Part shown: in pieces, positions 2,220 through 15,179 of the stretch
How the letters are laid out: each line of letters opens with the position of its first letter
Numbering within the stretch: the first letter of the stretch is position 1
Source: a virus
Virus record (IMG/VR): IMGVR_UViG_3300018080_008170
Span: 1-37,134 of that record
Direction: 5' to 3' (one strand)
Length of the DNA stretch: 37,134 bases
The notes under the pieces: generated by a model
Databases searched by the model: none
What the model saw: only the letters and a program-made list of their open reading frames with translations
What the model was told of the DNA's origin: nothing
Translations under genes and position numbers: made by a program

Positions 2220-3383
2220 TTAACGATTTCCTTTGGCACGATTGTGCGTCTTACACAACATCTGACAGTTCTTGGCCTCTGTCGTGCCACCCTTGCTCCA
2301 TGCTGTTACATGATCAGCATCCATTTCATTTAATTTCCAAATCTTGCTCTTATTGGCATCATGTCCAATTGCACAAAGTGGACAATTTGATTCTCCTTTA
2401 TTTTCAACTTTAGCAGTTTGTGCTTTATAAACAGCTATCTTGGTTGCCTCATCAAAAACTCGTATATCAAGTAATTTCGTGTCGATTGAACCACCAAGGA
2501 TGTACTCAAAGATACCCTTGAGGTCTTTGACATATGGATCATCGTAGAGCTTTTGTACTTCGGCTGATACCTTTTTAGGGTTATACGATTTCTTATGATA
2601 CTCTTCATATAATCGTCCCCACTCTCGTCCTCGCATCTCACTCTCTACATCGGTAAAAACACCAGACACCCAGTCAATCACACTGTTAAAATAGATTTTT
2701 AACTCATTAATGTTATTGTCGAATCGGTGACGGCTCAAATAATCGTCAATGTTTCCTTTACTCACCCAGTCCAGTGCCCTCTCTAAAAACTCCTGCCGGT
2801 TGGCACTTCCCTTTATGTATGCACTCCATTTCTGGATGTTGGAGTTTTGACTATTACTAAATTCTTCTTTGCCAAGTGTTACAAATGGCCCAGAATACAC
2901 AGCATTCAATAACTCTTGGTTATTGAGAGGGATTCCAGTAATATTAATCGTACGGTACCACTCTTTTATCTCGCTTTCCGTGCCTTCACATTCGTAAATG
3001 AGAAGTTTCGTTTCCATAATCGTTTCTTGTTTGTCTGTTGCAATACCGCTAAAATACTGCTCCATACAGTTTTCATCTTTGATGGCAAATTTGTTAGTCA
3101 CAAACCGTCCGATACTTGTGATACGTTGTTGTCCGTCTAAAACCTCTAAATTGTCGTCGCATACTTTGTTGAAGTATATCAAACCAATTGGGTAGCCCTT
3201 GAGGATGGATTCCATTACGGCCACATCTTTTTTGCCATCGGCATAGATATAGTTACGCTGGTACTCCGGTTGGATTGTCAGTTTACCAGACAGACCAAAC
3301 AATCCCTTGCCTTCAAGTTCGTTATAGACAAAACCTTCACAAATATCTTTAACGGTGATGTCGGTTTTTAAGGTTGTTTTCAT
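2220..3383 (-). CDS. DUF262-HNH nuclease
   Basis: This 387-aa protein has an N-terminal DUF262 (ParB/GmrS-like) domain with PEYQRNY at 39-45 and LDGQQRIT at 82-89, the usual DUF262 signatures. A C-terminal HNH nuclease follows, with CPLC at 334-337, the DH of DADH at 357-358, N372 and H380. DUF262 proteins with nuclease domains, such as GmrSD and SspE, act in NTP-dependent restriction or modification-sensing defence. The gene starts 5 bp after the methyltransferase stop and is surely co-transcribed with it. That makes it the likely restriction partner. The target and the effect of methylation on it are unknown. Confidence 0.8.
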
Positions 3384-3388
3384 ATCGT

Positions 3389-4561
3389 TTAATTCAGACG
3401 TTTAATAAAAATACGTTTGTATACCGCTCTGACGGGATATCCTACGTCAAAATATGTTCCAGAGCCAAAATGACTTTCTCTAATTACACAACCCATTGTT
3501 CCTGTGTTTGATTTCATTCTTTTTCCATCTACAACCTTTACTTTGTGAGAATATTTCTTTTTAGGTGGTGTTCCTTCATACGCATCACTTCCTGTAATCT
3601 CAAACTGATCTGGACTGTATTTATCGAGAAAACTAATTGGCACCCCCATCACTCCTTCATAATCAATCGGAATGGCATCAGTGAATGGTACTTCGATGGC
3701 GTCATAATTGTCGTAATGATCGTAAGATTCGTTGCCTTTAACCTCCTTGTGTTTACTGAATTTCAAATTATCTTGCATCGTCATCAACGGCAACATTTCG
3801 TGGCGCCGACCATGGTCAATATTTGTAAACCAACGAACACCTTTAATACGTAAAAACTTCTGGCCCTTTTCATCAATTCTCCAACCTGCTGCCTTTATTG
3901 GATATTCATCAGGTACTCGGAATTCGCGATCACCACTCTTAATACTCGGTCCAAGCCACATTTTATTTTCCTTAATCAGCGGAAAAACTTCTTTGTAGGT
4001 AATGGCGTTCATATTACCAATAATCACAAACTGCTTGTTGGCTTCCATAATCCATGCCAAGAACTCACGGAATAAAGAGAAAGGAGGGTTGGTAATGATT
4101 ATATCAGCTTCATCGCGAAGTTCTTTAATCTCATTACTTAAAAAGTCACCATCACCTGCTAAGTAATACCACTCTAAGTCATTTACATCTATCTTGCCAT
4201 CACCAGTCATATCGTGCGCCAGGGTAAAAATTTTGCCGTTTTTTGTAGTTTTATTTTTATCGTATTGTGGATTGTTTGTTTCAAAAAGAGTTGGCTGGTA
4301 AGCGATTTTGTATTTTTTGCTATCTGATGCGTAACTGGTACTGATGAGCTTCTTTAGACTATACCGATCAAAATTTTGGGCAAAAAACTTGGTGAAGTTA
4401 CTCCACTCTGGATCATCACAAGGCAATAGCACTGTCTTGCCCCGAAATACATCAGGGTTGTATTCCAAGTATGAAGCTATTTCTTTTTCGATATCGTGGT
4501 ACTGTGTGAAAAACTCGTCCATTTTTGCCAATTTGGCATTTGTGAGATCTCTGTTTGCCAT
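3389..4561 (-). CDS. EcoRI-type adenine-specific DNA methyltransferase
   Basis: This 390-aa protein resembles the EcoRI methylase family (PF13651). It has the [15 protein letters not shown] region at 42-56 and the adenine-methyltransferase motif NPPF at 158-161, followed by [16 protein letters not shown] calcium-loop-like stretch ([13 protein letters not shown], 117-129) sits in the middle, as in other members I recall. It is the first gene of a leftward operon with the DUF262-HNH gene and starts about 80 nt downstream of promoter copy 1. It probably methylates adenine in a short DNA site, either to protect phage and lysogen or to license the partner nuclease. No EcoRI-like endonuclease gene is present. 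Confidence 0.85.
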
Positions 4562-11072: not shown

Positions 11073-11906
11073 ATGGCAAAAAGACTAACCGATACCGATA
11101 AATATAAGAAGCCCTTTATAAGGGGCTTGCCAGGGCCTTATAAGCTCCTTTGGGACTATCTCTGTCATGAGTGTGATCACGCAGGAATATGGATAATCGA
11201 TTTCGAGGTCGCCCAGGTCTATCTCGGACAGGACATGAAGGTCAACAGAGAGGATGCTCTCCGATATTTTAACCAGGGAGAAACGCGTATTATTGAAATT
11301 GATCGCAATCGATGGTTTATTGCACCTTTCATTGAATTTCAATATGGAGTTCTAAACGAACAAAACCGTGTCCATAACTCGGTTATCAAAGTACTTAAAA
11401 AATATAATTTATGGGATGGGGCTAGTAAGGGCCTTACTAGCCCCTTACTAGGGTCTAGCAAGGGGCTAGCTAGCCCCTTGCTAGGGTCTAAGGATAAGGA
11501 TAAAGATAATAATAAAGAGAAAAAAGAGGGGTGTGGGGAGAAAAAGGAGAAAAATAAAAATTCCCAGGAAGCAGAAAATCTTTATGAACAGGTCATAAGA
11601 TATTTCGATACGGATCTCAGGCCGAAAACAAAAAATCAGAAACAGGAATGGGTAAATACCCTGGATAAGCTCATCCATATCGACGGTCATCCGCCTGATC
11701 GGATCAGAAAGGTCATTGCCTGGGCCAGGCAGGATGATTTCTGGCAGCTGAACTTCCTGTCGCTTCTGAAGCTTCGAAAAAAGGACAAATCAAAAGTGCC
11801 ATACTTCACAGTTTTTGAACAAAGAATGAAAATCAATGGAAACAATAGACAATCTGGTGAAAGATACATTAAAAGGGTTAACGACCTCTGGAATAAGGAG
11901 GAATAA
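11073..11906 (+). CDS. Phage replication initiator-like protein (DnaD/O-like)
   Basis: 277 aa from ATG 11073 (MAKRLTDTDKYKK); the frame runs upstream into the DUF4406 gene, but that part is a shadow. The N-terminal ~115 residues (FIRGLPGPYKLLWDYLCHEC, then FIAPFIEFQYGVLNEQNRVH) match the winged-helix initiator region of Bacteroidota phage replication proteins. A low-complexity linker (SKGLTSPLLG repeated, then K/D/N/E-rich) is followed by a helical C-terminal domain. The 3' end overlaps the DnaC-like gene by 71 bp. The linker is encoded by palindromic CTAG-rich DNA that probably is the origin, as in the lambda O gene. Confidence 0.75.
   Translation: MAKRLTDTDKYKKPFIRGLPGPYKLLWDYLCHECDHAGIWIIDFEVAQVYLGQDMKVNREDALRYFNQGETRIIEIDRNRWFIAPFIEFQYGVLNEQNRVHNSVIKVLKKYNLWDGASKGLTSPLLGSSKGLASPLLGSKDKDKDNNKEKKEGCGEKKEKNKNSQEAENLYEQVIRYFDTDLRPKTKNQKQEWVNTLDKLIHIDGHPPDRIRKVIAWARQDDFWQLNFLSLLKLRKKDKSKVPYFTVFEQRMKINGNNRQSGERYIKRVNDLWNKEE
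11421..11550. other. Probable replication origin inside the initiator gene
   Basis: Seven CTAG tetranucleotides occur within 63 bp (11422-11484). 11455-11484 is a perfect 30-bp palindrome with half-site CTAGCAAGGGGCTAG. 11422-11440 is a near-perfect palindrome around GGGCC. AGCCCCTTrCTAGGGTCTA is repeated directly at 11439 and 11472, 33 bp apart (three helical turns). Right after follows a purine-rich, strand-asymmetric, easily melted tract (11490-11550, GATAAGGATAAAGATAATAA). Iterons next to an AT-rich element inside an initiator gene match the lambda-type origin design. Function is inferred. Confidence 0.6.
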
Positions 11907-12534
11907 ATACATGCCATACAAAATGGATGTTGCCCTGGCTGTTGTAGAACGGATCGGTAAGAGTCTCGAACCGCAGTTTACATTAACTCCGGAAGCTGAA
12001 AGCATTTACAGGATATTGATACAGTGGTTTCACGGGGATCCCGGATTCGAGAAAAACGGCTATTTATCGAAGGGAATAATGCTGATGGGACCTACAGGTA
12101 CCGGGAAAACGCTTGCAATGAAGGTCATGTCTGTCTATCGCGAGATAGATAACATAATGTTCCTTATCGACGGCAAATTCTACAAGCTTTCCTACGATGT
12201 GATCGATGTAAATCACATTGTCAACTCATTCGTGCAGAGTGGTTATGAAGGTATCAGTGTATACAATACCAGAATAGCCCTTTGCCTGGATGACCTCGGA
12301 TCCGAATCGGAATATGTCAGGCGATTCGGGAACAAGGTCGATGTTATCAGCTATATCATTTCGGAACGGCACCTGAGAAGGCTGTTGACACTGGGTACTT
12401 CAAATTTTCCTCTCACTACCCTGGAAGAGAAGTATGATGATCGTGTTGTAAGCAGGATGTACGGAATATTCAACTTCCTGACCATGAAAGGACAGGATTT
12501 CAGGCGCAGACAAACGAAAAATCCAGCATCATAA
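11836..12534 (+). CDS. DnaC-like helicase loader (AAA+ ATPase)
   Basis: This 232-aa protein has Walker A GPTGTGKT at 85-92, Walker B IALCLDD at 147-153, sensor-like TSNF at 188-191 and a probable arginine finger in DRVVSRM (202-208). This order and size fit IstB/DnaC-type helicase loaders. It follows the initiator gene and overlaps it by 71 bp; an internal ATG at 11911 (MPYKMD) would remove the overlap. No phage helicase gene is visible, so the phage presumably loads the host DnaB helicase. Confidence 0.85.
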   Translation: METIDNLVKDTLKGLTTSGIRRNKYMPYKMDVALAVVERIGKSLEPQFTLTPEAESIYRILIQWFHGDPGFEKNGYLSKGIMLMGPTGTGKTLAMKVMSVYREIDNIMFLIDGKFYKLSYDVIDVNHIVNSFVQSGYEGISVYNTRIALCLDDLGSESEYVRRFGNKVDVISYIISERHLRRLLTLGTSNFPLTTLEEKYDDRVVSRMYGIFNFLTMKGQDFRRRQTKNPAS

Positions 12535-14219: not shown

Positions 14220-15179
14220 ATGAACTCAGACAAACCCATATTACAGCTGATGGATGAGTTCCTGGCCAACCAGGACATAAGTGAGAATTCACGAAGGAAG
14301 TATCGTGATAATATGCATGTTTTCATAGGATGGATGACACGCAATGCAGATGTGAGATATCCCAAACGATCGGACATCATTCAGTATAAACAGTGGCTTA
14401 TCAAATCGGGTCGCAGCGCCCTGACTATCGATAACTACCTGGCCCCTGTAAGGCAGTTCTTCAGATACCTGGAAGATATCGGTGAATATGACAATATTGC
14501 TGCCGGTGTACATTCTCCCAGGAAATACTTGGGATATCGTAAGGATTATCTCAGGCCGGACCAGGTCACCAGGTTACTGGCGACAATCAACAGGTTGTCG
14601 ATCCAGGGACTCAGGGATTATGCTGTTGTCAATCTCATGGTTCGTACAGGGATGCGCTGTATAGAAGTTACCAGGATAGATCTAAAAGACCTAACGATCG
14701 AGAATAAAGGATGGATCATTTACATCCAGGGGAAAGGACATTTGGAGAAAGACAGAGCCCTGGGCCTATCACTGAAAGTCATCAATCCGATCAGAGAGTA
14801 TATCAATGCTCTGGATAGTACCAGGGAATCAGATCCATTATTCAGGAATCATTCATATGTAAGTAACAATACCAGGCTGTCACCGGTGACCATAAGTAAG
14901 TTTATAAAGAGATACCTGAGATCCATTGGGATCGATTCACCCAGGATCACTGCACATTCCCTAAGACATACAGCTGCAATTACTGCTCTTAAGAACGGAG
15001 CAACCATATTCGAGGTTTCGAGAATGCTAGGTCATCGTAGCATCGAGACTACTCAAATCTATTTAAGAGCGATTGAGGAAGAGATGTCCAGAAACGGTAC
15101 TGCAGTACGTCGTCTGGACAATGCGTTCAAAACAGGTAAAAAGAACAACAAAATAAAGGAAATCTATATACCGAAATAG
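14220..15179 (+). CDS. Second tyrosine recombinase, XerC/XerD-like
   Basis: This 319-aa protein has a SAM-like N-terminal domain (about 5-90) and a complete catalytic set: R146 (TGMRCIEV), K172 (QGKGHLEKDRA), H246 and R249 (HSLRH), H272 (LGHRS) and Y281 (TTQIYLRA). Unlike the attL-linked integrase, all canonical residues are present. It lacks the extra insertion found between the catalytic Lys and HxxR of integron integrases. It lies between replication and packaging genes, where multimer resolution, genome circularisation or cassette mobilisation are possible roles. No att-like repeats are seen directly beside it. Confidence 0.9.
   Translation: MNSDKPILQLMDEFLANQDISENSRRKYRDNMHVFIGWMTRNADVRYPKRSDIIQYKQWLIKSGRSALTIDNYLAPVRQFFRYLEDIGEYDNIAAGVHSPRKYLGYRKDYLRPDQVTRLLATINRLSIQGLRDYAVVNLMVRTGMRCIEVTRIDLKDLTIENKGWIIYIQGKGHLEKDRALGLSLKVINPIREYINALDSTRESDPLFRNHSYVSNNTRLSPVTISKFIKRYLRSIGIDSPRITAHSLRHTAAITALKNGATIFEVSRMLGHRSIETTQIYLRAIEEEMSRNGTAVRRLDNAFKTGKKNNKIKEIYIPK

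Follow-up and report, generated by a model that had tools for sequence, protein, structure and literature searches.

A probable replication origin within a phage initiator gene

Replication origins that lie inside the gene of an initiator are a well-known kind of element, with lambda, pSK41 and SPP1 as described examples. The lambda ori consists of iterons and an AT-rich tract located in gene O, and for Stx phages six iterons have been reported (PMC7466680). In pSK41, binding boxes are located in a dispensable central linker of the gene, whose product combines a winged-helix N-terminal domain with an exchangeable C-terminal domain; in pPR9, the N-terminal domain and the ori were swapped together (PMC5703833). 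SPP1 has one origin, oriL, in gene 38 and another of similar build, oriR, in an intergenic position among structural genes (PMC6316719). In B. subtilis, DnaD was found to recognise TnnT repeats as single strand, opposite the DnaA-trios of oriC (PMC10201434).

The whole stretch of DNA analysed here, called the window throughout, is a virus record of 37,134 bases. Within it, an initiator gene carries two arrays of helically phased repeats, A and B, and a purine-rich tract that follows array B (Table 1). Judged from the sequence, array and tract very probably form a phage replication origin embedded in the initiator gene, with the array as its binding element and the tract as its melting element.

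Table 1. Location of the initiator gene, its domains and repeats, and the neighbouring loader gene in the window
Feature	Position	Strand	Description
Initiator gene	11073..11906	+	277 aa; holds arrays A and B and the tract; open reading frame with C-terminal matches to DnaD-like/O-like initiators
N-terminal domain	11073..11414	+	predicted winged helix; presumed DNA-binding part
Array A	11109..11150		four half-sites 11-12 bp apart near the gene start, read as KKPFIRGLPGPYKLL; synonymous shuffles p 0.0007
Array B	11416..11489		seven half-sites 10-12 bp apart in the initiator linker, with the CTAG palindromes inside; synonymous shuffles p 0.0007
Purine-rich tract	11490..11561	+	presumed melting element; A every third base over 13 codons (11490-11528)
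C-terminal domain	11550..11903	+	DnaD-like/lambda O-like; presumed helicase-loading part; phrog_2514, phrog_391
DnaC-like helicase loader gene	11911..12534	+	phrog_3277 (E 1e-12), phrog_50 (E 2e-12)

The initiator and its gene neighbourhood

The first 114 residues of the initiator make up an N-terminal domain for which AlphaFold2 predicted a winged helix with a pLDDT of 92. A Pfam search with this domain gave no match in any of seven family members, and in the window's initiator the comparison with PF04492 (Phage_rep_O) yielded no Pfam match and a profile probability of 0.1%. A Foldseek search of the model against the PDB returned nothing below E 0.001; matches to solved structures were weak and mixed and included RepA-type initiators as well as RepE, and the Z of about 5 reached by 4pta, 4pql, 4pt7 and 5kbj, the structures compared for a RepA_N fold, was equalled by unrelated winged helices. 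A viral structure library contained three close, unnamed matches, and replisome organizers recurred among the weak ones.

The C-terminal part is more readily placed. Residues ~141-249 matched DnaD-like and O-like helicase-loader families, phrog_2514 with E 5e-14 and phrog_391 as well, and the same six families (phrog_2514, 391, 2357, 9773, 4880 and 22834) are matched by lambda O. BLASTP aligned the domain with lambda O itself at E 3e-6, with 33% identity over 84 residues. By sequence similarity, the C-terminal domain is homologous to that of lambda O. The DnaC-like loader gene lies directly downstream of the initiator gene. The GC skew of the window, which had been proposed as a check on the origin, turns near 9-10 kb and in this respect fits an origin inside the gene, but it is confounded by gene strand and is therefore uninformative on the position of the origin.

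Elsewhere in the window, at 2220-4561 on the minus strand, a gene for an EcoRI-type adenine methylase (PF13651, E 4e-127) stands beside a gene for a nuclease with GmrSD_N and HNH domains; from their sequences, the two look like a phage-borne restriction-modification or defence pair. Two different tyrosine recombinases are encoded at 836-2047 and 14220-15179. The first contains SAM_5 and Arm-DNA-bind_5, domains associated with Bacteroidota elements, which is a hint at the host.

Phased half-sites and the periodic tract

The repeats are built from an 8-bp half-site, read as AGCCCCTT or, in the complement, as AAGGGGCT, which recurs about every 11 bp, that is, at roughly one turn of DNA. The half-sites of array B are centred at 11419.5, 11430.5, 11442.5, 11452.5, 11463.5, 11475.5 and 11485.5, and the array is a 33-bp module of three half-sites that was duplicated once. 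A scan of the whole window for phased arrays found no third one as strong as A and B; the same type of scan flags the annotated iterons of lambda. Array A had been missed by the first-pass annotation.

That annotation had singled out the palindromes and CTAG tetranucleotides of array B, and its description is largely borne out. The 30-bp palindrome at 11455-11484, CTAGCAAGGGGCTAG joined to CTAGCCCCTTGCTAG, is perfect, and the 19-bp palindrome at 11422-11440 is not only present but lengthens to 27 bp (11418-11444, 13+1+13). The 19-bp direct repeats 33 bp apart exist as two copies of TAGCCCCTTRCTAGGGTCTA that differ by one mismatch, and their period equals three half-sites. Seven CTAG do fall within 63 bp (11422-11484) and are as striking as had been supposed: CTAG occurs 23 times in the window against 104 times expected from dinucleotide shuffles, an under-representation of about 4.5-fold, so that a cluster holding seven of the 23 is far from chance in a virus that avoids this tetranucleotide. 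What did not survive is the role of CTAG and long palindromes as the key feature. Both follow from the orientation of the half-sites and the letters at their junctions; in the window CTAG is the junction between neighbouring half-sites, in relatives TAAG or CAAG mostly stand there, and some relatives have direct repeats only.

The purine-rich tract that had been noted after the palindromes was confirmed, the 77 bases from 11484 being the most purine-rich of that length in the window. Its A residues recur in 12 of 12 triplets, a periodicity equalled at 0.024% of window positions, and most of the tract is a hexamer repeat. Array and tract give the linker of the window's initiator odd peptides, KGLxSPLLG and KDKDKD, and it is selection at the DNA level that would dictate this part of the protein (see below).

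Relatives of the N-terminal domain

At least 577 viral stretches encode the N-terminal domain, as do 19 genome contigs from bins of Bacteroidota, Elusimicrobiota, Omnitrophota, Bdellovibrionota, Thermodesulfobacteriota, Bacillota and others, while a single isolate, Pseudanabaena phage Pan5, carries it among 50,697 phage records. The plasmid search returned no member of the window's family. Nearly all relatives have the same layout, in which the N-terminal domain is followed by a phased array, a KDKDKD-like tract and then C-terminal domains that are unrelated to one another. In the comparison with relatives that the first-pass annotation had called for, the array recurs in hundreds of environmental viruses; an exact search of viral contigs for the window's own palindrome found nothing.

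The usual array in the relatives is AAGCCCCTTACA AGCCCCTTACA AGGGGCTAAGG, two half-sites of like orientation and a third in the opposite one, followed by (GATAAA)n. More distant members keep the geometry with other half-sites, namely AGACTATACA in L106, AAAGGGTATCC in L100 and the ATTAGGTAATGATT type in L107 and L008; Psychrobacillus phage PVJ1 has ACAGTATC at 11-bp intervals. Some arrays, for example those of L127 and L218 in the second initiator family described below, consist of direct repeats only. The type of half-site clusters on the tree of N-terminal domains (0 of 200 shuffles were as low), suggesting that it is inherited together with the domain; this is suggestive only, because the regular-expression classes of half-sites are coarse and partly wrong, L027 and L108 having no clear arrays. 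Periodicity of the tract is not clear in L157, L205 and L216. In L157 the array is directly followed by a run of ten G at ~7030, and shortly beyond it the open frame stops, through a sequencing error or a frameshift. L166 carries about ten half-sites in both orientations at ~3223-3300 on the reverse strand, followed by TAG/TAA triplets outside a readable frame.

A second initiator family

A second family of initiators, whose proteins begin MRDYGKV...FWTG, carries arrays of the same kind in other reading frames; some lie in the linker, others within the part of the gene that codes for the N-terminal region. Translation of its tract gives QEQEQE or GTGTGT, and A nevertheless recurs every three bases, in constant phase relative to the last half-site; in one member (L186, read TVTVT) A occupies every sixth base. 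Tested against synonymous shuffles, most members have significant arrays in the N-terminal region and in the linker. Both N-terminal families are predicted to have a similar winged-helix topology, and a profile comparison between them gave a probability of 20%, for which reason common descent is not claimed. In L127 and L218, among others of the MRDY family, the DNA of the N-terminal array corresponds to the protein stretch GxPLEGASKGLRRL, which forms a turn and a putative recognition helix in the structural model; the DNA-binding helix would here be encoded by its own presumed binding site.

Cultured phages of this family infect E. coli (LMessi, Fraca, CharmingMan, PhiR5_2), Acinetobacter and Klebsiella. 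In PhiR5_2 the gene order is cI-cro-cII-initiator-DnaC, with initiator and DnaC in the place that O and P occupy in lambda. The PhiR5_2 gene (L233) has matches in 2,715 E. coli genomes; in 104 of them the match extends over at least 80% of the gene, and many have just the 3' part in common with it, which indicates that C-terminal parts of the PhiR5_2 type are combined with other N-terminal domains. A match of the second family to a small plasmid was set aside as a functional test, the record being linear and containing prophage genes.

Selection on the DNA element

Selection on the repeats was examined with a score blind to the sequence itself, three 8-mers ~11 bp apart in direct or inverted orientation, which was set against 1,500 synonymous recodings of the segment in question. 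The linker array exceeded the recodings (p<0.05) in 41 of 56 non-redundant genes, with a median p of 0.01, and the array at the gene start did so in 24 of the 56, against 0-3 in four control segments of the same genes; the 56 genes are mutually related, and a combined probability is not to be taken literally. About six of the 15 relatives in which the linker array was not significant (L027, L082, L092, L093, L095 and L108) have no recognisable array in the linker or nearby. Codon choice is likewise constrained, the proline of the motif being CCC in 36 of 38 cases and elsewhere in the genes in 32 of 217.

Searching viral contigs by the DNA pattern alone returned the window's family and the second initiator family, besides L124, L132 and L202. 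L135 resembles the window's family and has its array in another frame, and arrays in other frames specify unrelated peptides (EAPSKPL, QAPYKPL, GTGTGT). The pattern match in L136 was rejected as a module, as it looks like a plain terminator.

Complete modules also occur between genes in three lineages (L114/L117/L123, L148/L164 and L137), with A at 83-100% of every third position in the non-coding copies. In two diverged lineages the intergenic module lies beside a tape-measure-like gene, and the module is conserved while its flanks are not. One record (G004, with copies L245 and L246) contains two near-identical modules 9.5 kb apart, one in the initiator gene on the plus strand and one intergenic on the minus strand, which starts just after a tyrosine-recombinase-like gene; the module alone is common to the two, and the flanks differ. 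The occurrence of the array in different frames and between genes argues that selection acts on the DNA element, not on the encoded protein, and makes these loci clean cases in which selection at the DNA level overrides protein sequence.

Proposed mechanism and alternative explanations

If array and tract are an origin, the winged-helix domain would bind the half-sites, and with their spacing of one helical turn several protomers would be aligned along the same side of the double helix. The array would then nucleate the opening of the neighbouring tract with its A at every third base; this tract may melt, or the initiator or a partner protein may take it up in single-stranded form. The DnaC-like loader and the C-terminal domain, which resembles lambda O and DnaD, would by analogy with their homologues recruit the replicative helicase. 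Array A may serve as another initiator site, for autoregulation or looping. That the C-terminal domain may itself recognise the TnnT strand is an attractive idea because this domain belongs to DnaD-like families.

The arrays could instead be operators, through which the initiator or another regulator controls transcription of the replication operon while replication starts elsewhere. In the window, array A is near the start of the gene, and phased inverted half-sites are typical of repressor sites too, but this explanation is unlikely. The strongest array is in the middle of the gene and always has an A-periodic tract behind it, for which an operator would have no use; the intergenic copies neighbour structural genes, at a long distance from every initiator that the record shows; and the precedents of lambda, pSK41 and SPP1 favour an origin (PMC7466680, PMC5703833, PMC6316719). 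Operator and origin roles are compatible and do not exclude each other. A recombination site, either an attachment site or a mosaic breakpoint, would account for the unrelated domains that follow the module in different members and for the intergenic copy in G004, inverted relative to the coding one and next to a recombinase-like gene. Tyrosine-recombinase sites are not known to combine helical phasing over up to seven half-sites with a periodic tract, and the copies by structural genes in L114 and L148 have no recombinase nearby, so that this role is very unlikely.

It is highly improbable that the palindromes act as RNA, in the form of mRNA hairpins controlling translation, decay or transcription elongation of the replication genes. 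RNA of the window does fold strongly here (-52.8 kcal/mol, z -4.8), but a palindrome with a two-base centre cannot close as a tight RNA loop, and the ~11 bp spacing is kept across members with different half-sites. Several relatives (those with direct repeats only) would form no such hairpins, so that hairpins cannot be the principle shared by all members. Scarcely credible, finally, is an explanation at the protein level, in which a flexible, charged linker with conserved short peptides (KPLxSPLQG, KDKDKD) is what matters and the DNA repeats are a by-product of slippage. The peptide is indeed conserved in one frame in most members of the window's family; this reading is contradicted by the frame-shifted copies with their unrelated peptides and by the modules in non-coding DNA, and the codon choice goes beyond what the peptide needs.

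The origin within the initiator gene, therefore, is the reading preferred here. It is also possible, though advanced more tentatively, that the module is portable, moving between initiator families and between coding and non-coding sites and dictating amino acids on its way, as a phage counterpart of the DnaA-box with DnaA-trio/DRE, in which the initiator would spread from double-strand sites onto a periodic single strand. No description of such a module was found in the open-access literature, which is weak evidence of novelty; on that evidence, what appears to be new is the code of half-site and tract, its use by both initiator families and in different frames, the existence of non-coding copies and the wide spread among uncultured viruses. 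The code offers a signature by which origins could be recognised from sequence in a large group of uncultured phages, and it brings to light a family of DNA-binding domains missing from Pfam. The triplet-periodic tract makes a trio-like loading element in phages directly testable, and second-family relatives in phages of E. coli K-12 make such tests tractable.

Comparison with known systems

A lambda-like origin inside the initiator gene had been the central claim of the first-pass annotation, and it holds in kind, through the comparison with relatives, the lambda O-like C-terminal domain and the loader gene next to the initiator, but not in detail. As in lambda, repeats that presumably bind the initiator lie inside its gene and are followed by an AT- or purine-rich tract, with the loader gene next, and iteron number varies. 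Unlike in lambda, the N-terminal domain is not PF04492, which lambda O itself matches at E 6e-36; a half-site occurs every ~11 bp, whereas lambda has 18-bp iterons every 20-24 bp; and the tract with A strictly at every third base and the second array at the gene start are further differences.

With the pSK41-type RepA_N initiators the locus shares a winged-helix N-terminal domain (predicted here), boxes in the central linker and an exchangeable C-terminal domain; it differs in having no RepA_N match in Pfam and a weak similarity of fold (Z about 5), and in its phage context, DnaC-like loader and lambda O-like C-terminal domain. SPP1 is matched by the single in-gene and single intergenic copies of G004, and in position by those of L114/L148, whereas the window has no intergenic copy, its only two arrays both being in the gene, and the sequences are unrelated as far as described. 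Like the DnaA-trio and the DnaD recognition element, the tract is triplet-periodic and adjoins presumed double-strand binding sites; its A at every third base reads TnnT on the other strand, and the C-terminal domain falls into DnaD-like families. Unlike at DnaA-trios, no DnaA is involved, and hexamers rather than triplets make up most of the tract. By its predicted domain content, the window initiator is a hybrid of a new N-terminal domain and a lambda O-like C-terminal domain, and for this reason it is filed as a member neither of lambda O nor of RepA_N.
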